Source: Deltaproteobacteria bacterium
GTDB lineage: Bacteria; Desulfobacterota; Desulfobulbia; Desulfobulbales; Desulfurivibrionaceae
NCBI GenBank assembly: GCA_026388695.1
Contig: JAPLJH010000021.1
Span: 1-48,288, forward strand
Direction of reading: 5' to 3'
DNA: 48,288 nt
The notes beneath the pieces are model-generated. The model was not told the origin of the DNA, did not search any database, and was given only the letters and a program-made list of their open reading frames with translations. The position numbers and the translations under genes were made by a program. Positions 5,938 through 37,668 of the stretch are shown in pieces. The stretch's first letter is position 1. The number at the start of each line of letters is the position of its first letter.

Positions 5938-6046
5938 AGTGGAAACCTATTGTGAGTTGATGTCGGGAACCTGCATCCCTATGATTCCGGGATGTGGGGC
6001 ACTAGCGAGAATAGAAAAATGTTGCTGTAAACAAGGAGAACCATAC

Positions 6047-8128
6047 ATGCGAAAGATTTTATTTCTTACGACCGCGGTGACGTTGCTGGCCGGGGGAGCT
6101 CATGCGGCCACTGCGCCGCCGGAGCTGCAAACAACCTGTCTGAAATGTCATTCAGACAAGAGCTCTTCTGTGAGCTGCACCAACAGTAAATGGACCGGCC
6201 ACAACGGCAGCAAGGTGACCACCGTACTCTACGATGCGGTAACTTTGTATAAAACCGGCAAGACCTGTAGCGGGGCGACTACGCCTCCGCCGACAACCAC
6301 GCCTCCGCCTACGACCACCACTGCGCCGCCGGAGTTGAAAACTACTTGCCTGAAATGTCATTCAGACAAGAGCTCCAGCGTGAGCTGCACCAACAGCAAA
6401 TGGACGGCGCATAATGGCAGCAGGGTGAGCACCGCAGTGTACGATGCGGTCACCCTGTACAAAACCGGTAAGACCTGTGGCGGGACCACAACCACTCCGC
6501 CGCCGACCACCAGCACCAGTGCGGCAGCCGCCCATGCCGCCATCACGGCCTACAACGGGCCATCCACCTGTATCGCCTGCCATCCGACCCAGGCCACGGA
6601 CATGCTGAACAGCCTGCACATGCAATGGAAAGGCACAGCATCGGAGTTGACCAATGCTCCGGGCCAGTCGTTGGGCAAGGGCGCCAAAGGTATCAACACC
6701 TTCTGCACCTACGCCATGTCCTCCGGCGGCGCCTGCTTCAACTGCCATGTGCGGGCCGACGGCAATGCCCCGCATGCGCCTTCGGTGAACGATGTGGATT
6801 GCCTGATGTGCCATAATGATACCTACAAGCGGAAAACAACCCCTGACCCGTCTACGGCCTTGCAGGTTACCGATTATCTCGGCCAGCTCAAGACCTATGT
6901 CTTCGGCCTGCGCGACGCCCAGGGCAACTACTTCACCGAGCCTGATTACGCGCTGATGCCTGCTGGCACCACCATGGTGAATCTGGCCCGCACCGTACAC
7001 AAACCCACCCGGAATTCTTGCCTGCGCTGTCACGCAAAGGCTGCTGGTTCCGATTGGGCCAAGCGCGGCGACATGGGCGTCAATACTGCGGCTCCCACCG
7101 ATGCCCAGGACGTGCATATGTCTCCGACCCGCGGCAATCTGAGCTGCTCGGCGTGTCATACCACCAGCAAGCACAAGATCGGCGGGCGCGGCATTGACCT
7201 GCGCGAGACCGAGGCGGTTGATCCGAAATGTACGGATTGCCACGGCGCCGCACCGCATAAAACCACCACGGCCAACTACGCCAAGCTGAACCGCCATGCC
7301 GCAGGCCAGGTGGGCTGTCAGACCTGTCATATCAAGACCTATGCCAAGGGTGGCGCCACCGAGATCTCCCGCGATTGGAGCAAGCCGGTTTGGAATGCGG
7401 CCTTCTGCAACGGGCAGGGCGGTTATGTCGGCGAGGAGGTCAAGGCTGCCAATCAGAAGCCGGAGTACCGCTTCTTTGACGGCACCTCCTACGTGTACAA
7501 TGTCGGCGAGAAAATCAGCAAAAACGCCGACGGCTCCTACACCATGGCCAAGGCCAACGGCACGATTTTCGACGGCAAGTCCAAGATCGTGCCGATCCGC
7601 GTTCACACCTCCGCCTTGCCCCTGCTGGCAGACGGCCGGATTGTTCCGCCTGCGATCATGTGGATGTTCATGACCGGCGATTTCAAGCAGGCCGTGACAA
7701 AAGGCATGCAGGATCAGGGCATGACCGGCAGCTACACCATGGTTCCGGTTAAGGCGGAAATGCTGATCACCCATGGAGTAGAGCCAAAGACCATGGCCCC
7801 GAAATGTGCCGAGTGCCATGGCACAATGACCGGTCACAACAACCTGATGGTGCCCTTCACCAGCCTCGGCTACCATGAGTTGCCGACCTCGGCCAAGGGC
7901 TGCACCATGTGCCACAGCAAGAAAACCGCTACCTGGGAATCGGCCCATGATACCCATCGGGGCAAGTTCAAATGCTGGGGCTGTCACAGCAAAACCCCGA
8001 AGGGCTTGAAGAGCCCGACTTCGACCCTGTGCAAGACCTGCCACAGTCTGGAGTCTGGAAGTTCCGCGAGCGTGCATGCGAGACATATTCCGAAGGGCTA
8101 CGTCTGCACGACCTGCCATGTGTTTTAG
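6047..8128 (+). CDS. Exported 14-heme c-type cytochrome, octaheme tetrathionate reductase-like
   Basis: Periplasmic or surface multiheme electron carrier or reductase. The 693-residue precursor has a signal peptide (about 1-20, ending AHA) and 14 CxxCH heme attachment motifs. The central part resembles the OTR (tetrathionate reductase family octaheme cytochrome) fold: CIACH...SLHMQWKG, CFNCH, VDCLMCHNDTYKR, CLRCH, DVHM...CSACHTTSKH, CTDCH and CQTCHI occur in that order. The N-terminus is a tandem duplication of a 55-residue one-heme module (from residues 22 and 92), joined by Thr/Pro-rich linkers. The C-terminal region adds five CxxCH motifs. An in-frame GTG at 5939 is rejected because it overlaps the -12 box; AAGGAG precedes the chosen ATG. 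Substrate is not determined: OTR relatives reduce tetrathionate, nitrite and hydroxylamine in vitro, but this protein could be a conduit cytochrome. Confidence 0.9.
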   Translation: MRKILFLTTAVTLLAGGAHAATAPPELQTTCLKCHSDKSSSVSCTNSKWTGHNGSKVTTVLYDAVTLYKTGKTCSGATTPPPTTTPPPTTTTAPPELKTTCLKCHSDKSSSVSCTNSKWTAHNGSRVSTAVYDAVTLYKTGKTCGGTTTTPPPTTSTSAAAAHAAITAYNGPSTCIACHPTQATDMLNSLHMQWKGTASELTNAPGQSLGKGAKGINTFCTYAMSSGGACFNCHVRADGNAPHAPSVNDVDCLMCHNDTYKRKTTPDPSTALQVTDYLGQLKTYVFGLRDAQGNYFTEPDYALMPAGTTMVNLARTVHKPTRNSCLRCHAKAAGSDWAKRGDMGVNTAAPTDAQDVHMSPTRGNLSCSACHTTSKHKIGGRGIDLRETEAVDPKCTDCHGAAPHKTTTANYAKLNRHAAGQVGCQTCHIKTYAKGGATEISRDWSKPVWNAAFCNGQGGYVGEEVKAANQKPEYRFFDGTSYVYNVGEKISKNADGSYTMAKANGTIFDGKSKIVPIRVHTSALPLLADGRIVPPAIMWMFMTGDFKQAVTKGMQDQGMTGSYTMVPVKAEMLITHGVEPKTMAPKCAECHGTMTGHNNLMVPFTSLGYHELPTSAKGCTMCHSKKTATWESAHDTHRGKFKCWGCHSKTPKGLKSPTSTLCKTCHSLESGSSASVHARHIPKGYVCTTCHVF
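6110..6274 (+). repeat. First copy of duplicated heme-module coding repeat
   Basis: Encodes the module starting TAPPELQTTCLKCHSDKSS. It is nearly identical at the DNA level to 6320-6484, offset by exactly 210 bases (70 codons), including a shared stretch around CTGAAATGTCATTCAGACAA, so the duplication is probably recent or maintained by recombination. Confidence 0.9.
6320..6484 (+). repeat. Second copy of duplicated heme-module coding repeat
   Basis: Partner of the repeat at 6110-6274. The intervening 45 bases encode a low-complexity Thr/Pro linker, and a similar linker follows this copy. Confidence 0.9.
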
Positions 8129-22719: not shown

Positions 22720-23727
22720 TTAAAGCAGACCAAAGAAAAGTACTTCGCACACCGCAGTGGGGTTGCAGTTGCGGGCCAGTTGTTTCCGGGCTGTGTCCAG
22801 TAAGCGCAGCTTATCTGCGAGCTGGCCACTGGACCAGCGGCGGCAGGCTGTCGGGAAAGTGGGGCTCATATCATGGTTGATGATCGAACCTGGCGCGCCA
22901 TGGTCGAAGAGGAGCAGATCGTGGAGCCAGGTGGTGAGCAGCTCCAGGAGTTCGCCTAAATCCTCCTTGAGCTTGGCTGCTGATTCTGCGAGGTCGCCCA
23001 AGGCCTGAATCGTGGCCGGGGTGTTCGGCTCAAGCCGCAGCAAATGGTCGACAATTTCTCTCCGCAACCCCAATAGGTCCTTGGTCAGGATGACTCTGGC
23101 TCGGCCCAGGCTGCCTTCGGCCATGGCCGCCAGGGTGGCCGCACTTTCCAGATCTATGCCTGCTTCCAGCGCCAGGATTTTCGCCACCTTTGCCTGGGGG
23201 AGCGGGAAAAAAGGTACGGTCTGGCAGCGGGAGAGGATGGTGGGCAGAATCCCGCCCGCCTCGTCGGCGGTGAGGATGAGCATGGTCTGGCTGGGCGGTT
23301 CCTCCAGGGTTTTGAGCAGGCTGTTGGCCGCCTCCCGCCGCATGGTGTGGATATCGCAGAGCAGTGCCACCCGGATCTTGGCCTCAAAGGGAGGGAAGGC
23401 CAGGGTTTTTTTGAGCTCGCGCACCTGATTGATCTTGATCGCCGCACCCTCCGGCTCGATGACGATGAAGTCCGGGTGGCTGCCGGAACGTAACTTGACG
23501 CACGATGGGCACTGGCCGCAGGGTTCGTGGCTCTGAGGGTTTTGGCAGTTGAGGGCGGCGGCAAAGGTTTTGGCCAAGGTCTTTTTGCCAACCCCCATGG
23601 GGCCTTTGAAGAGCAAGGCATGGGCCAGCCGATCTTGCTCTACGGCGCGGTGCAGCAGTTTTTTAGCCTTGTCCTGGCCGATGATCCCGGCAAAAGAAAG
23701 GGGTATGTTTTCCTGGGGCTGTTTCAT
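22720..23727 (-). CDS. holB: DNA polymerase III subunit delta'
   Basis: Clamp-loader subunit of the replicative polymerase. The 335 residues show the AAA+ clamp-loader layout: the IIGQDKAKKLLHRAVEQDRLAHALLF N-terminus, P-loop GPMGVGKKT, zinc-binding cysteines (CGQCPSCVKL), a DEAD-like region replaced by CDIHTMRREAANSLLKTLEEPP, and the sensor segment LSRCQTVPFFPL (the SRC motif). The C-terminal collar domain is present. It begins a leftward gene train leading to ricT-like and metG. Confidence 0.93.
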   Translation of the reverse strand: MKQPQENIPLSFAGIIGQDKAKKLLHRAVEQDRLAHALLFKGPMGVGKKTLAKTFAAALNCQNPQSHEPCGQCPSCVKLRSGSHPDFIVIEPEGAAIKINQVRELKKTLAFPPFEAKIRVALLCDIHTMRREAANSLLKTLEEPPSQTMLILTADEAGGILPTILSRCQTVPFFPLPQAKVAKILALEAGIDLESAATLAAMAEGSLGRARVILTKDLLGLRREIVDHLLRLEPNTPATIQALGDLAESAAKLKEDLGELLELLTTWLHDLLLFDHGAPGSIINHDMSPTFPTACRRWSSGQLADKLRLLDTARKQLARNCNPTAVCEVLFFGLL

Positions 23728-23813: not shown

Positions 23814-25160
23814 TCAGGCGTCCGGGGCAGGGCGATTCCTGATGACCTGCTGGACTGCCTCGATGATCTCGGAAGATTCCGGGCCTTTGCGGATCACCAG
23901 ATCAGCGCCGGCAGCCAGGGCCTCTTGCTGGACCTCCGGCCGCTCGTCCGCGGTAAACAGCAGGAGCTTCACTTCGGCGCAATCCGGGTGGCGGCGGATT
24001 TCCTTGCAGATTTCAATGCCGGAAAGAAGCGGCAGGATGTAATCGATCACCGCTACCGCTGGTTTTTCGGCGAGGATCAGGGCCAAGCCTTCCTGGCCGT
24101 TGGTTGCGGGAAGGGGGATGAACCCGGCTTTTTGTAGCAGACGGCTGTAAAGCCTTAAAATAACCGGGTTGTCATCGACGATCACGACCTTGTGCGGGGC
24201 AACGGCCTCGCCGGCGGTTTGTGGTTCGCCTAAATCCTGGAGAATCAGGAGCTGATCCCCTTGGCGCAGAGAGAGTTCCGGTCCAGGAAAGATGGTGTCC
24301 TGGTCGGCCCGACGCAAGCCGAAGATCCGGGTGCCCATCTGCCGGGAAACCTCTTCGATGGTGGCCTTGGCCATGCTCGATCCTTCTTGTACCTCAATCC
24401 ACTGGCTGGTAAGGGATTCCTTGCCAGCCTGCCTGCCGGTGGCGATGAGAAGGGCTTCGGCAATTCTTATCCCGGCCGAGGCAAAGGGGGAGATGACGTT
24501 GTCGGCGCCGGCCCGGAGAATCTTGTGCTCCGAGGAAAGGTCTTCGGCCCGTGAGATGATGTGCAGGGTGGGGTTGAGTTCCCGTGCGGACAAGACAATA
24601 AAGAGGTTGTCCGGGTCTTTGTTGAGCAGGGCGATCAGGCCGGTGGCCGATTTGATCCCGGCTGCCCGCAGTGTCTCCTCGTGGGTGGCGTCGCCGTGGA
24701 TGTGGAGATGGCCCTGTTCGGCAATGTGCTGGCAGTGTTCTACCGAATGTTCAATGATTACGAAATCAACCTGGTTGGCCTTGAAATGTTCCGCCGCCGC
24801 CGCGCCCACCCGCCCATAGCCGCAGAGGATGAAATGTGACTTGAGCTGGGCAATCTTCTTGTTCATTTTTTTTCTCTCCTTCCCCCCGGTCCAGACCGTT
24901 TCCATGATTGAACCGACCAGGGCGTGGCTGGCAAAGGCCAGGCCGCTGAAGCCCATGACAATGTAGCCGATGGTGAAAAGCCGCCCGGTGTCGGAAAGCG
25001 GGTGTACCTCGCCGAAACCAACCGAGGTCAGGGTTATGACCGACATGTACAGGGCCTCGATAAAGGTGAAGCCTTCAATCCCCATATAGCCCAAAATGCC
25101 TACCAGGATAAGGGCGATAATGGCTGCCAGGGTCCAGATGATCCGATGGGGTTTTTTCAC
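23814..25160 (-). CDS. Two-TM potassium channel with RCK domains fused to a C-terminal receiver domain
   Basis: The 448-residue inner-membrane protein has TM1 at about 7-28, a pore loop with filter TLTSVGFGE (43-51, a variant of TVGYG/TVGFG), TM2 at about 61-85, an RCK_N (TrkA-N) Rossmann domain from about 107 (FILCGYGRVG), an RCK_C domain (about 240-310), and then a complete receiver domain (about 323-443). The receiver has the acidic pair D329/D330, a phospho-acceptor at D373 in VIDYILP, Thr403 and Lys425. MthK-like channels normally end after RCK_C, so phosphorylation could gate the channel or the channel could serve as sensor. The start is GTG with a weak ribosome site. No kinase gene adjoins. 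Confidence 0.9.
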   Translation of the reverse strand: MKKPHRIIWTLAAIIALILVGILGYMGIEGFTFIEALYMSVITLTSVGFGEVHPLSDTGRLFTIGYIVMGFSGLAFASHALVGSIMETVWTGGKERKKMNKKIAQLKSHFILCGYGRVGAAAAEHFKANQVDFVIIEHSVEHCQHIAEQGHLHIHGDATHEETLRAAGIKSATGLIALLNKDPDNLFIVLSARELNPTLHIISRAEDLSSEHKILRAGADNVISPFASAGIRIAEALLIATGRQAGKESLTSQWIEVQEGSSMAKATIEEVSRQMGTRIFGLRRADQDTIFPGPELSLRQGDQLLILQDLGEPQTAGEAVAPHKVVIVDDNPVILRLYSRLLQKAGFIPLPATNGQEGLALILAEKPAVAVIDYILPLLSGIEICKEIRRHPDCAEVKLLLFTADERPEVQQEALAAGADLVIRKGPESSEIIEAVQQVIRNRPAPDA

Positions 25161-25395
25161 GGGCGGAATCTGGGGGGAAGGATGATCCCCGCTGGAGCAG
25201 GGCCGGGCAGTGCTGTCAATGGGGCAGTCAGTTTCATGGAATTCTTGTACCGTGCCTTGTCAGGTTCGTCAAGCAACAGCAGGAGTTTTATGGAAAAAGG
25301 GCCTTTTTGTCGGGGCAACGCAATTTCCTGCGGAAAAAAGTGTGGTTTAATGATAGGTTGGGGCTTGTTTATTTTCGTCGCTACTTGTGCATAAC

Positions 25396-25572: not shown

Positions 25573-28500
25573 ATGGGAACGACAGTCCGCCAGTTATACC
25601 GCGCCATTGATGGCAACCGTGAATACTGTTTCAACATCGAAAGCACCGCCCCCCTGACCGGACAGGAGTTGAACAACCTCAAGCTGCTCTTGGCGGACGG
25701 CTTTTTGGCCGAAACGGTCACCGCCCCCCCCAATCTCGCCGGAGAGCGGGTGGTGGAGTTGGGACCTCGGCTTAATTTCGCCACGGCCTGGTCGTCGAAC
25801 CTGGTCTCCATCTGCCGGGCCATCGGCCTGGACTCGGTGACCCGGGTGGAACGCTCCCGCCGCTTTCTGGTGCCTGCGGGTGACGATCTTGCGGCCTTTG
25901 TCGCGGCCAACCACGACCGGATGACCGAGTGCCAATATCTGGCGGCCCTCACCACCTTTGAAACCGGGGTCACTCCCGAGCCGGTGTATGCAATCGACCT
26001 CATCAGCCAGGGGCCGGACGGGTTGCTGGCCATCCCCGGCATCTCCATGGACGAATGGGACCGGAATTTCTACTACGACTACTTTGTCACCAAGCATAAG
26101 CGCAACCCTACCATCGTCGAGATCATGGACCTCAACAACGCCAATTCCGAGCATTCCAGGCACGGATTTTTTCGGGGCAAGCAGATCATCGACGGCGTGG
26201 AGCAGAAGGCAAATCTGTTCCAGTTGGTCACCGACACCCTCACCGCCCACCCCAAGGGCAGCGTCATCGCCTTTAAAGATAACTCCAGCGCCGTGGAGGG
26301 CCACCGGATCACCACCCTCCTCCCGAATCAGCCAGGCGCGCCCTCCCCACTCTCCGCCCAGGAGGTGGTCTACCATGTGCTGCTCACCGCCGAGACCCAT
26401 AACTTCCCCACCGGGGTTGCCCCGTTCCCCGGGGCCGAGACCGGCACCGGCGGCCGGATCCGCGACGTGCAGGGCACCGGCAAGGGCGGCTTTGTCATGG
26501 CCGGAACCGCGGGCTACTGCGTGGCCAATCTCCATATCCCCGGCTACGACCTGCCCTGGGAGAACCGCTACGAGTGTCCGGACAACCTGGCCAGCGCGCT
26601 TACCATTGAGATCGAGGCATCCAACGGCGCCTCGGACTACGGCAACAAATTCGGCGAGCCCCTGGTCTTGGGCTTCACCCGCTCCTTTGACCTGCGCCTG
26701 GACGATGGCGAGCGGTGGGGCTTTCTCAAGCCGATCATGTTCACCGCCGGGGTGGGCCAGATCGATGCCCGGCACACCGCCAAGGCCAAGGAGGAAAAAG
26801 GCATGCTCATCGTCCAGGTGGGCGGCCCGGCCTACCGGGTGGGTTTTGGCGGCGGGGCCGCCTCCAGCATGCTCCAGGGCGAGAATGTCAGCGAGCTTGA
26901 TTTCGACGCGGTGCAGCGCGGCGACGCCGAGATGGAGCAGAAGATGAACCGGGTGATTCGGGCCTGTAACGAGATGGGCGACAAGACCCTGATCGACGTG
27001 ATCCACGACCAGGGTGCAGGCGGCCCGGCCAATGTCTTAAAAGAGCTGGTGGAAAAATCCGGCGGCCGCATCGAGATCCGCAACATCCGGGTGGGCGACC
27101 CCACCATGAGCGTGCTGGAGATTTACGTGGCCGAGTACCAGGAGCGCAACGGCTTTCTGATCCGGCCCGAAAATATCGTGAAATTCCAGGCCATCTGTGA
27201 GCGGGAAAAGGTGGCCTGCGAGGTGCTGGGCGAGGTGACCGGCGATCTGCGCTTCGTGGTGCATGACGCGCAGGATGGCTCTACGCCGGTGGATATCGAA
27301 TTGAACGAGCTGTTGGGTAATGTGCCGATCAAGACTTTTACGGATAACCGGCGCGAGCCGGGGTTAAAGCCTCTGGTGGTGCAGGATCTCAGCGTGAAGG
27401 ATGCCCTGCACAATGTCCTGCGGCTGGTTTCCGTGGGCTCCAAGCGCTTTCTCACCAACAAGGTGGATCGGGCCGTGACCGGCCTCATTGTGCGGCAGCA
27501 ATGCTGCGGCCCGTTACAGCTGCCGGTGAGCGACGTGGCGGTTTTGGCGCAAAGCCATTTCGCCAAGTCCGGGGTGGCCACGGCCATCGGCGAGCAGCCC
27601 ATCAAGATGCTGGTCAACCCCGCAGCCGGGGCGCGGATGGCTGTGGGCGAGGCCCTGACCAATCTGGTCTGGGCCAAGGTGGTAGAGCTTGAGCAGGTCA
27701 AATGCTCGGCAAACTGGATGTGGGCTCCCAAGCTGGAAGGCGAGGGCGCGGCCATGTACGACGCGGCCCTGGCCATGCGCGAGGCCATGCTCGGGGTGGG
27801 TATTGCCGTGGACGGCGGCAAGGACAGCCTGTCCATGGCCACCAAGGTGGGCAAGGAAACGGTTAAGTCGCCCCGGGAGCTGGTGATTTCGGTCTACGGA
27901 GCGGTGGCGGATATTGGCAAGGTGGTGAGCCCGGACATCAAACAACCCGGCAGCAGTTTGCTTCTGGTCGACTTGGGCGGCGGCAAAAACCGGCTCGGTG
28001 GCACGGCCCTGGCCCAGACCCTGGGCCAACTCGGCAACGAGTCGCCGGATATGGACAACCCGGTCCAGGTCAAACAGGCCTTTTGTGCTGTGCAGGAGCT
28101 GATCGACAAGGGGATGATCGCGGCAGGTCACGACCGTAGCGACGGAGGGCTGGTCACCACTGTGCTGGAGATGGCCTTTGCTGGCAACTGCGGCCTGGAC
28201 CTGCCCCTGACCGGCACGGCCACCGCCATTGAGGCCCTTTTCAGCGAAGAGTTGGGGCTGGTGTTGGAATGTGTGGTTGGGCAGGAACAGGCAGTGCAAG
28301 ATATTCTCGGCAAGGGTGGAGTCCCTTGCGTGTTGCTCGGCGCAACCACTTCCACCAAGGATATTCGGATCAGCTATAACGGGGCAATGGTCCTTGCCGA
28401 AGACATGCGGCTTTTGCGCCAATGGTGGGAGGAAACCAGCTACCAGTTGGAGCGGCTCCAGATCAAGCCTGCCTGCGCCGATGCGGAAAAGAAAAATATC

Positions 28501-29373
28501 TATGACCGTAAGGGGCCGACCTACCGCTTAAGTTTTACCCCGGAAAAAACCGCAGCCGAAGTGCTGGCGAAAACGAACAAACCAAAGGTCGCTATCCTGC
28601 GCGACGAGGGCTCCAATTCCGACCGGGAGATGAGTTCCGCCTTTTACGCCGCAGGGTTTGAGCCCTGGGACGTTACCATGACCGACCTGCTGACCGGGCG
28701 CATTACCTTGGACGGCTTCCGGGGTCTGGCTGCGGTGGGCGGTTTTTCTTACGCCGACGTGCCCGAGTCCGCTAAGGGTTGGGCCGCCACCATCCTTTTC
28801 AATGACCGGCTCAAGGCCATGTTCCAGGCCTTTTACGACCGGCCCGACACCTTCACCCTGGGCATCTGCAACGGCTGCCAGCTCTTTGGTCTGTTGGGCC
28901 TGGTGCCTTGGCAGGGGCGGCTTCCGGCTGAGCAGCAGCCCCGCTTCATCCACAATCTCTCAGGCCGGTTCGAGTCGCGCTGGGTCACGGTCAAGGTGCT
29001 GAAAAGTCCGGCCATGATGCTCAAGGGCATGGAGGATCTGACCTTCGGCATCCATGTGGACCATGGCGAGGGCTTCCTCCATTTCCCCGACCCGGCCATC
29101 AAAGCAGAGGTGCTGGCAAGCAATCTTGCCACCCTGGCCTATGTGGACGACGCAGGCCAGCCCACCGAGGCCTATCCCTTCAACCCCAACGGCTCACCCG
29201 GGGGCCTCACCGGTCTCTGCTCGCCCGACGGCAGGCACTTGGCCATGATGCCGCATCCGGAACGGGCCTTTTTGCCCTGGCAGTGCCACTGGCTACCCGA
29301 GGAGATGAAGCCGCTGCCTGTCTCGCCCTGGCTGAGGATGTTTCAGAATGCCTACGAGTGGTGCCTGAAGTAG
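25573..29373 (+). CDS. purL: Phosphoribosylformylglycinamidine synthase, full-length PurL with glutaminase domain
   Basis: Catalyses the fourth step of purine synthesis (FGAR plus glutamine plus ATP to FGAM). At 1266 residues it is the large single-chain type. It has an N-terminal PurS-like domain (about 1-150), a linker with LNNANSEHSRHGFFRG, two AIRS-type synthetase halves (ETHNFPTGVAPFPGAETGTGGRIRD and later DGGKDSLSMATK), and a C-terminal class I glutaminase (about 995-1266) with catalytic Cys in GICNGCQ and the His/Glu pair in MMPHPERAF. The ATG lies 19 bases after the MITE-like element, so its promoter may be partly inside that element. Large PurL is typical of Gammaproteobacteria and eukaryotes and also occurs in some Desulfobacterota. 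Confidence 0.97.
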   Translation: MGTTVRQLYRAIDGNREYCFNIESTAPLTGQELNNLKLLLADGFLAETVTAPPNLAGERVVELGPRLNFATAWSSNLVSICRAIGLDSVTRVERSRRFLVPAGDDLAAFVAANHDRMTECQYLAALTTFETGVTPEPVYAIDLISQGPDGLLAIPGISMDEWDRNFYYDYFVTKHKRNPTIVEIMDLNNANSEHSRHGFFRGKQIIDGVEQKANLFQLVTDTLTAHPKGSVIAFKDNSSAVEGHRITTLLPNQPGAPSPLSAQEVVYHVLLTAETHNFPTGVAPFPGAETGTGGRIRDVQGTGKGGFVMAGTAGYCVANLHIPGYDLPWENRYECPDNLASALTIEIEASNGASDYGNKFGEPLVLGFTRSFDLRLDDGERWGFLKPIMFTAGVGQIDARHTAKAKEEKGMLIVQVGGPAYRVGFGGGAASSMLQGENVSELDFDAVQRGDAEMEQKMNRVIRACNEMGDKTLIDVIHDQGAGGPANVLKELVEKSGGRIEIRNIRVGDPTMSVLEIYVAEYQERNGFLIRPENIVKFQAICEREKVACEVLGEVTGDLRFVVHDAQDGSTPVDIELNELLGNVPIKTFTDNRREPGLKPLVVQDLSVKDALHNVLRLVSVGSKRFLTNKVDRAVTGLIVRQQCCGPLQLPVSDVAVLAQSHFAKSGVATAIGEQPIKMLVNPAAGARMAVGEALTNLVWAKVVELEQVKCSANWMWAPKLEGEGAAMYDAALAMREAMLGVGIAVDGGKDSLSMATKVGKETVKSPRELVISVYGAVADIGKVVSPDIKQPGSSLLLVDLGGGKNRLGGTALAQTLGQLGNESPDMDNPVQVKQAFCAVQELIDKGMIAAGHDRSDGGLVTTVLEMAFAGNCGLDLPLTGTATAIEALFSEELGLVLECVVGQEQAVQDILGKGGVPCVLLGATTSTKDIRISYNGAMVLAEDMRLLRQWWEETSYQLERLQIKPACADAEKKNIYDRKGPTYRLSFTPEKTAAEVLAKTNKPKVAILRDEGSNSDREMSSAFYAAGFEPWDVTMTDLLTGRITLDGFRGLAAVGGFSYADVPESAKGWAATILFNDRLKAMFQAFYDRPDTFTLGICNGCQLFGLLGLVPWQGRLPAEQQPRFIHNLSGRFESRWVTVKVLKSPAMMLKGMEDLTFGIHVDHGEGFLHFPDPAIKAEVLASNLATLAYVDDAGQPTEAYPFNPNGSPGGLTGLCSPDGRHLAMMPHPERAFLPWQCHWLPEEMKPLPVSPWLRMFQNAYEWCLK

Positions 29374-34430: not shown

Positions 34431-34733
34431 GGGGGAGATGTGTTTCCGAAATTTGAATTTGTGTTTTGATTTTGGGCTGTTGTCGGGACACACAAAAGAG
34501 AGGAACGAGTCGAGGCTGACATGGTGACATGTTTTGTCAGTTGCCGGTGGCGATATGTGTCAATGGTGACGAACGTATGGAGTTTTTATTCTAAGAAAAG
34601 AGCATAGCGTGTATTTTAGGTAGTTGTAGGGAAAGCATTTTTTTTGCTTAATCAGTTAGCATTTCCATATGGCCTGTCCGGAGTGCCAGATTTTCCTTGT
34701 TTGCAAAACTGTGATGAACCCAGGAGGCGATGC

Positions 34734-36296
34734 ATGCGGGTTTGGAATTTGAAGGCGCAGACGATTTTAACTTTTTTCCTGATTCTAGGGGTTGGCATGC
34801 TGCTGGTAAACGTCGTGTCCATGCAACTTTGGAAGCGGCAGGCTTTGCGTGCCGATTTAGATCATACTCGTAGCCTGCTTTCGGTCATGGCCAGGTATAG
34901 GTTCGAGGGTGGCAGCGAGGGGCGGTTCGGGGATGAAATTAAACAAATATTGCGATCAGATGATGCGATTTTGTGCTTCGGTTCTGTAGCCGCACAGGGA
35001 GAAATCATCAATATCTCCTCCGGATGTGAGGCTTTTGCAAAAGTTTTGGAGATTTCTCTGGCGAATATCACGCACTCTGGCACCGAAGACACTCGCTTCC
35101 TCCCTTATTCTCCATCGGACAGCGGATTAGCGAGAAATAATGTGCTGCTTGTTGCGCAGCCTTATCTATCTCCAGATGGAGCAAGGGGCGCCGTGGCCAT
35201 GGTCCGTTCCGCCCAGCCGATTGATGTACTGTTATGGGAAAATGAAAAGATAATTCTGGGCTATATGCTTGCCAATGCGGTGGTGCTTGCGGTTGTCGGC
35301 TTTTTCCGTATGGTCAAGCTTGTTGTCCGCCCCTTGGAACGCCTTGCCGAACAGGCGGATACCTATTCTCTGAAGCATGATTTTTTGCCTTTTGCTGGGC
35401 GAGCGGGAAATGAGTTTGGGCGTCTCTCCTCAAGCTTGAATCGAATGATGGTGCAACTAGAAGAGGATCGGAAATCGCTTCTTCAGAAGGTGGACTCTCT
35501 GCGGCTTGCCAATGAGGAACTGGAACGGAATCGGCGAGAGATGGTCAGAGCGGAGAAGATGGCGTCCATAGGCAGGTTGGCCGCAGGTCTTGCCCATGAG
35601 ATCGGCAATCCGCTGGGGGTTGTGCTGGGATACCTGGATCTTCTCGGGCAAGGTGTGGAAGCTCCCGAGGAAAGGAAAGAGTTCGCAAGGCGTGCGGAGC
35701 AGGAGGTGGCGCGGGTGGGCAGGTTGATCAGGCAATTGCTGGATTATGCCCGGCCGGTTGGCGGGGGATTAGCCCCGCTGCATGTGGGAGCGCTTTTGGC
35801 CGAATGCCTGGAGCTGCTTCGCCATGGAACTGTTTCTAGCCACATAGAGTTTTCTCTCAGCTCAGCGACCGAGGACGACTTGGTGCTGGCCGATGCTGAC
35901 GGTCTGCGCCAGATTTTCGTGAATTGTTTCATGAATGCAGTTGATGCCGTTGGTCTGCTTCCTGAAGGGGAGGTAACCACGCGGTGTTTTAACGAACTTG
36001 AGAATGGGCGGCGTTATCTCCGGGTTGTTATCGAGGATAACGGTCCGGGAATTGCAGAAGAACATCTGGAGGCTGTGTTCGAGCCTTTCTTCACAACCAA
36101 GGAACCGGGCAAAGGCACGGGCCTGGGGTTGGCGGTGTCCTGTTCGCTTGTCGAGAAATGGGGCGGGCGGATGTGGGCTGAAAGCGGTCGGGATGACCGT
36201 GGCGGGGGAGCTGCCATCTGGATTTCTCTGCCCTTGGCCGCGTCCGCAGGTGGGGAAAATGGTATGGCCAGTGTGACAGGAGATGTGCATGGGTGA
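34734..36296 (+). CDS. pilS: PilS-like sensor histidine kinase
   Basis: Membrane sensor kinase expected to phosphorylate the PilR-like regulator encoded next. The 520 residues comprise TM1 (about 8-30), a periplasmic sensing domain (about 35-175), TM2 (about 180-200), a HAMP-like segment (about 200-255), a coiled coil, a HisKA domain with phospho-acceptor H288 in LAHEIGNPLG, and an HATPase domain with VNCFMNAVDAV (N box), EDNGPGI (G1), and GKGTGLGLAV (G2). The start is the ATG at 34734, where AGGAGG sits 7 bases upstream. Classical PilS has six TM segments and a PAS domain, so this two-TM form with an external domain is PilS by context. Confidence 0.87.
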   Translation: MRVWNLKAQTILTFFLILGVGMLLVNVVSMQLWKRQALRADLDHTRSLLSVMARYRFEGGSEGRFGDEIKQILRSDDAILCFGSVAAQGEIINISSGCEAFAKVLEISLANITHSGTEDTRFLPYSPSDSGLARNNVLLVAQPYLSPDGARGAVAMVRSAQPIDVLLWENEKIILGYMLANAVVLAVVGFFRMVKLVVRPLERLAEQADTYSLKHDFLPFAGRAGNEFGRLSSSLNRMMVQLEEDRKSLLQKVDSLRLANEELERNRREMVRAEKMASIGRLAAGLAHEIGNPLGVVLGYLDLLGQGVEAPEERKEFARRAEQEVARVGRLIRQLLDYARPVGGGLAPLHVGALLAECLELLRHGTVSSHIEFSLSSATEDDLVLADADGLRQIFVNCFMNAVDAVGLLPEGEVTTRCFNELENGRRYLRVVIEDNGPGIAEEHLEAVFEPFFTTKEPGKGTGLGLAVSCSLVEKWGGRMWAESGRDDRGGGAAIWISLPLAASAGGENGMASVTGDVHG

Positions 36297-37668
36297 CGCC
36301 GGGCGGTTGCTTATAGTCGATGATGAGGAAAGCATGTTGCAGATGCTTTCCGTTGTCGCCTCCAAGGCCGGATATTCGGTAACCCTGGCTCGTAACGGCG
36401 AGGAGGGGCTTGCCGTTTTGGCAAAAGGGCCTTTCGACCTTATCCTCTGTGATCTGAAGATGCCGCGTCTTAATGGTCATGAATTTCTCAATAAAATAAG
36501 AGAGTTGGGCGTTGAGGCGCCGGTTGTCATGATGTCGGCATACGCAGCCATCGAAGACGCGGTGACTGCCATGAAGGCCGGTGCCTATGATTTCATCACC
36601 AAACCATTCAAGGCGGACGAGGTGCTCCTCACCTTGGAGCGGGCAGGCGAGCACCTGCGCCTGCGGCGGGAAAATCAGCGGTTGCGTCAACAGCTCGACG
36701 ATCTTCAGCGCGAGCAGGGGCTTGAGGACATGGTTGGCAAGAGCAGCGTCATGGTCTCCTTTTTGAAAACAATAGTCAAGGTGGCGCAATACGACACCAC
36801 GGTGCTCATCACCGGTGAATCCGGCACCGGCAAGGAACTGGTGGCGAGAGGGATTCACCAAAAAAGCGGCCGGGCCAGCAAGCTTTTTCTGGCCGTCAAT
36901 TGCGGGGGGATGCCTGCAAGCCTGTTGGAAAGCGAGCTGTTCGGCTACGTGAAAGGCGCTTTTACCGGGGCGGAAAAAGACCGCAACGGCATCTTCCAGG
37001 AAGCGAATGGCGGCACTCTTTTTTTGGATGAGATCGGCGAACTCCCCCCGGAAGCTCAGGTGAAGTTGTTGCGGGTTTTGCAGGAGCGGGAGGTTCGACC
37101 TGTCGGTGGGGTGCGGGCGGTGCGCGTCGATGTGCGGGTTCTTGCCGCCACTGCTCGCAAGTTGGAAGAGGAGGTGGCGGCGGGCCGGTTTCGGGAGGAC
37201 CTGTTTTATCGGCTTAATGTGATCCGGTTGCATGTCCCGCCGTTGCGTGAACGCATGGAGGATCTTCCCCTGCTCTGTACCCGTCTGTTCGACCGGATCG
37301 CGGCCAAACTCGACAGACAGCCCCCGGAGCTGCCTCCGGCCACCCTGGCAGTGCTGCTCCGCCACCGTTGGCCCGGCAATGTCCGGGAGCTGGAAAACGC
37401 CCTGGAGCGGGCGATGGTGCTGGCAGAGGGAAAAGTGATCCTACCGGAGCATCTGCCGGAAAATATGGTGGGTGGGTCAGAGCCGTGCAGGATGGGCATC
37501 GAGAATATCCTGGGCACCTACTCCCTGAAAAAAGGACAACGGGAAATGGAGCGCGCCCTTATCGCCCAAGCCCTGGCAGTCACTGGTGGCAATAAGAGCA
37601 AGGCGGGCCTGCTGCTTGAGATCAGTTATCCTTCCCTGCTGAGCAAGATGAAGGATTACGGGTTATGA
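36289..37668 (+). CDS. pilR: PilR-like NtrC-family sigma-54 response regulator
   Basis: The 459-residue activator has a receiver domain (about 5-120, phospho-acceptor D55 in CDLKMP), an AAA+ domain with Walker A GESGTGKE (about 176), the GAFTGA loop, Walker B GTLFLDEIGE, and a C-terminal Fis-type helix-turn-helix (about 415-455). Its ATG at 36289 overlaps the kinase stop by eight bases, with AGGAG at 36278-36282. By position it should act on the pilin promoter and on the sigma-54 promoter of the minor-pilin operon. It is distinct from the GAF-type activator at 4346. Confidence 0.9.
   Translation: MGDAGRLLIVDDEESMLQMLSVVASKAGYSVTLARNGEEGLAVLAKGPFDLILCDLKMPRLNGHEFLNKIRELGVEAPVVMMSAYAAIEDAVTAMKAGAYDFITKPFKADEVLLTLERAGEHLRLRRENQRLRQQLDDLQREQGLEDMVGKSSVMVSFLKTIVKVAQYDTTVLITGESGTGKELVARGIHQKSGRASKLFLAVNCGGMPASLLESELFGYVKGAFTGAEKDRNGIFQEANGGTLFLDEIGELPPEAQVKLLRVLQEREVRPVGGVRAVRVDVRVLAATARKLEEEVAAGRFREDLFYRLNVIRLHVPPLRERMEDLPLLCTRLFDRIAAKLDRQPPELPPATLAVLLRHRWPGNVRELENALERAMVLAEGKVILPEHLPENMVGGSEPCRMGIENILGTYSLKKGQREMERALIAQALAVTGGNKSKAGLLLEISYPSLLSKMKDYGL

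Follow-up and report, generated by a model that had tools for sequence, protein, structure and literature searches.

A gene for a probable Kch/MthK-type potassium channel of the Desulfurivibrionaceae encodes a complete, conserved receiver domain in the same chain

MthK, a Ca2+-gated K+ channel (PDB 1lnq and others), consists of a two-transmembrane (2TM) pore followed by RCK_N and RCK_C, with a methionine at the junction that precedes the RCK domains. GsuK, a K+ channel from Geobacter solved with NAD or ADP (PDB 4gx0, 4gx2), has two tandem RCK units per subunit. Neither carries a receiver domain. Receivers, to our knowledge, nearly always act through DNA binding, enzymes or protein contacts; for VicR, ArlR, KdpE and CheY, which are single-domain or OmpR-type receivers, the output is DNA binding or the motor. 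The nearest functional precedent that we found, by analogy, for control of K+ transport by the phosphorylation state of a signaling protein is E. coli YcgO, a K+/H+ antiporter with a putative RCK domain that is inhibited by unphosphorylated PtsN (PMC11808508). In that system, however, transporter and regulator are separate proteins, the modification is a PTS histidine phosphorylation, and the target is an antiporter rather than a channel.

We analyzed a stretch of 48,288 nucleotides (the window) in which one gene combines a 2TM pore, both RCK domains and a receiver. The original prediction had the coordinates of this open reading frame exactly, 23814-25160, and left its strand unstated; the gene lies on the minus strand as a single uninterrupted frame of 448 codons with a GTG start. 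The order that had been proposed for its domains was borne out, each scoring above its curated Pfam cut-off, and our alignment of 28 diverse members (mean column identity 43%) agrees with the positions given for the filter TSVGFGE and for D329, D330, D373 and K425. The receiver had also been called complete, and a fifth receiver residue, T403, is present as well. The features of the gene are as follows.

23814-25160, minus strand: channel-RCK-receiver fusion gene, 448 amino acids, GTG start (open frame and orthologues).
24918-25121, minus strand: 2TM pore domain, Ion_trans_2, residues 14-81 (Pfam, 51.9 bits; AlphaFold helices 4-29, 33-45 and 57-90).
25008-25034, minus strand: selectivity filter TLTSVGFGE, residues 43-51 (V47, G48 and E51 invariant; G50 in 25/28).
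24486-24833, minus strand: RCK_N, TrkA_N, residues 110-225, with a GYGRVG nucleotide-binding loop and the acidic residue E137 (Pfam, alignment).
24240-24401, minus strand: RCK_C, TrkA_C, residues 254-307 (a marginal Pfam match, 28.4 bits against a cut-off of 27; matched by 23/28 members at E <= 0.001).
24195-24233, minus strand: variable flexible linker, residues 310-322 (pLDDT <50 for 310-320; dN/dS 0.41).
23850-24188, minus strand: receiver domain, Response_reg, residues 325-437 (Pfam, 73.6 bits; Z 22, rmsd 1.3 A; dN/dS 0.096).
24171-24176, minus strand: acidic pair D329-D330 (invariant, 28/28).
24042-24044, minus strand: predicted phospho-acceptor D373, codon GAT (invariant, 28/28).
23952-23954, minus strand: switch threonine T403 (invariant, 28/28).
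23886-23888, minus strand: K425 (invariant, 28/28).

RCK_N and RCK_C both lie C-terminal to the pore, which satisfies the K+ filter pattern T-x-x-x-VG[FY]G, and phmmer aligns residues 11-314 with MthK (E 4e-28). We take E210 and E212 to be the Ca2+-site residues of MthK; MthK-like Ca2+ gating is unlikely here because an invariant arginine (R204, 28/28) stands at the place of E210, while position 206, the equivalent of E212, is E in 19/28 members and A, G, V, D or Q in the others. The window's genome contains only one fusion, together with two receiver-less Kch-type channels on contig 49. The receiver-less Kch-type paralogue G000:C49:60362 (L002) has the same pore-RCK_N-RCK_C core at 37% identity, with a junction methionine and an internal Shine-Dalgarno (SD) site; channels of this kind differ from the fusion in that they terminate after RCK_C.

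Structure prediction agrees with this layout domain by domain. The AlphaFold model, made with 28 sequences (mean pLDDT 81.5, pTM 0.42), predicts the individual domains well, but not their mutual placement, including that of the receiver on the ring. Foldseek gives MthK and then GsuK as the best fold matches of the channel-RCK part. The VIA-align matches listed cover the receiver domain only; among them, solved receivers, including that of the K+ regulator KdpE, match the predicted one with Z about 20-22 and rmsd 1.1-1.9 A, 8fk2 among them (Z 22.1, rmsd 1.3 A, 121 residues). VicR, ArlR, KdpE and CheY have this fold and the D-D-D-T-K set in common with the fusion, whose output would instead be a membrane channel. 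We found no single PDB chain with the pore-RCK-receiver combination. The original prediction knew of no well-characterised example, and we likewise found no characterised channel-receiver fusion in the open-access literature, which is weak evidence as most subscription papers lie outside it.

A comparison of five congeneric orthologues shows strong purifying selection on the receiver, with a dN/dS of 0.096; RCK_N stands at 0.049, the pore and RCK_C both at 0.136, and the linker that precedes the receiver at 0.41. Besides the five catalytic residues and the filter positions listed above, the GxGRVG loop of RCK_N and Met99 are invariant in all 28 members. This conserved architecture with its complete receiver favors the idea that the channel is regulated by phosphorylation. 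Two positions depart from the usual receiver pattern: the one that corresponds to the aromatic switch Y106 of CheY is V in 26/28 members, and S or G replaces the usual P directly after K425. The output face is therefore probably specialised for the gating ring, and signaling within the receiver may be unusual.

The fusion was matched in 47/258 genomes of the class at a threshold of E 1e-75, spread over 15/69 genera and seven families (f1, f2, f3, f5, f7, f11 and f12). Nearly all of these 47 matches extend through the receiver; two are cut by masked sequence and one lacks the first 74 residues. Orthologues from dozens of species share 43-97% identity, always with the catalytic residues of the receiver. 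Among 297 genomes sampled across the phylum, the sole member outside the order comes from another class (G313), and the Bacteroidota contribute one in 247 genomes, on a metagenome-assembled contig of 7660 bases (L104). Because the neighbors on that contig look Bacteroidota-like to us (a DEAD-box helicase, lipoprotein-like genes), horizontal transfer is more likely for this member than bin contamination. At the thresholds used, which shorter or rearranged fusions would escape, no fusion was found in 398 genomes of the Thalassomonas phylum (Pseudomonadota) or in 235 Myxococcota genomes. In a tree of the channel part, one clade with support of 100 unites every fusion protein and leaves out the eight receiver-less channels; the receiver tree for the most part recovers the families as well. 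This pattern of single origin fits one fusion event that was then inherited, lost in some lineages and sometimes transferred. Giant open reading frames of 2919 and 3092 amino acids in two relatives were considered as larger fusions and rejected, as they are masked N runs.

A second product may come from the same gene, starting at the pore-RCK junction.

24876-24881, minus strand: AAGGAG, internal SD-like site (sequence; recoding statistics).
24864-24866, minus strand: ATG of the invariant Met99 (28/28; SD strength against other internal Met codons, p = 1e-6), where translation of a soluble RCK-receiver product, 350 amino acids long, is proposed to begin.

The AAGGAG lies nine bases 5' of the ATG. 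Across the 28 genes, the SD energy before Met99, compared with synonymous recodings, has a mean z of -1.07, and 225 further internal Met codons average 0.007 (Mann-Whitney p 1e-6). Taken family by family, the means also depart from zero (p 9e-4); f12 and the Bacteroidota member show only a weak signal. MthK obtains its soluble RCK subunit from an internal start, to which Met99 is presumably close (one residue apart in the MthK alignment). Since a strong SD precedes an invariant Met99, the sequence suggests that the gene also yields a putative soluble RCK-receiver subunit comparable to that of MthK. Most receiver-less kin that we examined have an internal SD before the junction methionine too (in the Kch-type channels L002:1495-2478, L050 and L051 it is a strong GGGGAGG or GGGAGA), and channels of this group may generally have such a start. 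The pairing of this SD with an invariant methionine is new here; the original prediction had missed the likely soluble product, as it had the relative with an HPt domain and the operon link to c-di-AMP, both described below.

The full-length GTG start in the window has no clear SD. Its surroundings are defined by the following features.

25244-25272, minus strand: promoter-like pair TTGACG (25267-25272), 17 nucleotides, TACAAG (25244-25249), conserved in congeners.
22720-23727, minus strand: holB (DNA polymerase III delta'), the downstream neighbor, on one side of the fixed site.
25573-29373, plus strand: the divergent neighbor on the other side of the fixed site, which we take to be purL (orthologues by tblastn).

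Both hexamers are identical in all five congeneric orthologues, within an otherwise variable region; a consensus promoter scan did not list the pair. A few bases after TACAAG begins an out-of-frame reading frame of 26 codons (25157-25237, minus strand; MKLTAPLTALPGPAPAGIILPPRFRP), whose TGA overlaps the GTG of the channel gene; congeners have similar short frames, and translational coupling between the two is possible. Farther upstream, the intergenic segment 25410-25540 contains, by eye, two TTCGACAGGCTCAGG-like stretches that have diverged and face opposite ways; they may be a REP-type element, and no pair was listed there by the repeat finder. Within the window's genus the fusion gene sits between purL and holB, and in ten congeners that lack it these two genes adjoin with only a short gap. 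Because of these ten, the comparison indicates that gain or loss of the gene happens at a single fixed site and that the gene is non-essential. No operon partner conserved across more than one bacterial family was seen, and PADLOC returned no defence match.

We favor, with some reserve, a Kch/MthK-type K+ channel in which phosphorylation of D373 adjusts the gating ring. Four 2TM subunits would form the pore and conduct K+; the RCK domains, probably together with separately translated RCK-receiver subunits from Met99, would build a cytosolic, nucleotide-binding gating ring; and a flexible linker would tether a receiver to each RCK_C. D373 would take its phosphate from a histidine kinase or an HPt protein whose gene lies elsewhere; the receiver would then change its surface and pack differently on the ring, which would shift the open probability of the pore in a direction that the model leaves free. 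The outcome would be fast, transcription-independent two-component control of K+ flux and membrane potential.

The window contains no dedicated kinase gene adjacent to the channel. The nearest kinase recognised among the genes scanned is a histidine kinase with an NtrC-type response regulator at 34644-37668, about 9.5 kb away. A conserved adjacent histidine kinase was sought in 27 neighborhoods and rejected, with kinase-like genes in only three and none conserved, which counts against the model. In one of the 28 aligned members (G313; L100:7945-9786, 614 amino acids), the receiver is followed by an extra C-terminal Hpt domain above the Pfam cut-off. This channel-receiver-HPt chain points to a phosphorelay, as it makes most sense if phosphate does pass through the receiver.

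A second possible input is c-di-AMP. Family f12 has the fusion gene directly upstream of cdaA-ybbR-glmM, on the same strand, in 19/26 genomes by coordinate count, a contig end cutting the neighborhood in two further genomes; the Pfam domains DAC, CdaA_N, YbbR and PGM_PMM were verified for one such neighborhood. The adjacency could be synteny inertia, since the DUF748 gene that flanks it divergently on the far side is conserved within f12 too. A diadenylate cyclase is encoded in 47/48 fusion genomes, that of the window's genome on another contig. We take R169, N175 and P191 to be the c-di-AMP contact residues in the RCK_C of KtrA; the alignment columns for R169 and N175 vary among the 28 members. 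The best match, to 4XTT, is weak (E 0.09). c-di-AMP acts through RCK_C on several K+ transport proteins (PMC8517857), and its contact residues are poorly conserved even in a proven binder (PMC12453120). An input of c-di-AMP to this channel is possible, and the residues speak neither for nor against binding. A tentative elaboration, which we would not put ahead of the simpler model, is an octameric ring of full-length and soluble subunits with up to eight receivers, phospho-gated and, in this one family, integrating c-di-AMP from the adjacent cdaA operon.

Other readings shift the weight between the parts of the protein. Signals might run the opposite way, the channel or RCK part sensing K+, a nucleotide or the membrane state and changing phosphate uptake by the receiver, which would then serve as a regulated sink or relay reporting K+ status to the kinase network. 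The receiver and HPt at the C-terminus of one member are the arrangement expected for handing phosphate on, and the likely soluble RCK-receiver product agrees with such a role; the HPt was, however, found in only that one of the 28 aligned members, and the pore has been conserved along with the receiver in the members compared. We hold this reversal to be unlikely. A shade less likely again is a receiver that works independently of phosphorylation, as a module for dimerisation or protein contacts that makes the ring more stable or brings a partner to it: V at the switch position and S or G after K425 would give it a non-canonical output surface, yet five catalytic residues kept without exception in 28 diverse members would be unexpected were the chemistry lost.

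The soluble protein from Met99 could also be the main product, a gating-ring subunit for other K+ channels or for Trk-type transporters, with the pore secondary. A strong internal AAGGAG beside a GTG start that lacks a clear SD would suit this, as would the two additional Kch-type channels in the genome. Such an arrangement seems distinctly improbable to us: the pore is itself under purifying selection with its filter kept, a conserved promoter-like pair precedes the full-length start, and the internal SD is shared by most receiver-less channels examined. That the fusion is an artefact of a frameshift, an assembly error or the chance joining of two neighboring genes we discount almost entirely; we found no support for it, and orthologues refute it, the continuous frame having the same layout in many independent assemblies.

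If phosphorylation of D373 does tune the ring, a sensor kinase could alter membrane potential and K+ within seconds and without transcription, and bacterial electrical signaling would have a defined molecular switch. Besides having a compact gene, the system offers natural variants for comparison: an HPt-bearing member, members with an altered filter, and congeners without the gene. In the altered-filter subgroup, three f3 members (L086, L087 and L089) read VGYSE, VGFSE and VGFAE in the filter columns in place of VGFGE, with the receiver intact; these proteins, in which another residue stands in for the second filter glycine, may have a different selectivity or conduction. Elsewhere in the window, positions 5939-8128 encode a multihaem cytochrome-like protein of 729 amino acids that weakly matches the outer-membrane cytochrome domain of MtrC/MtrF.
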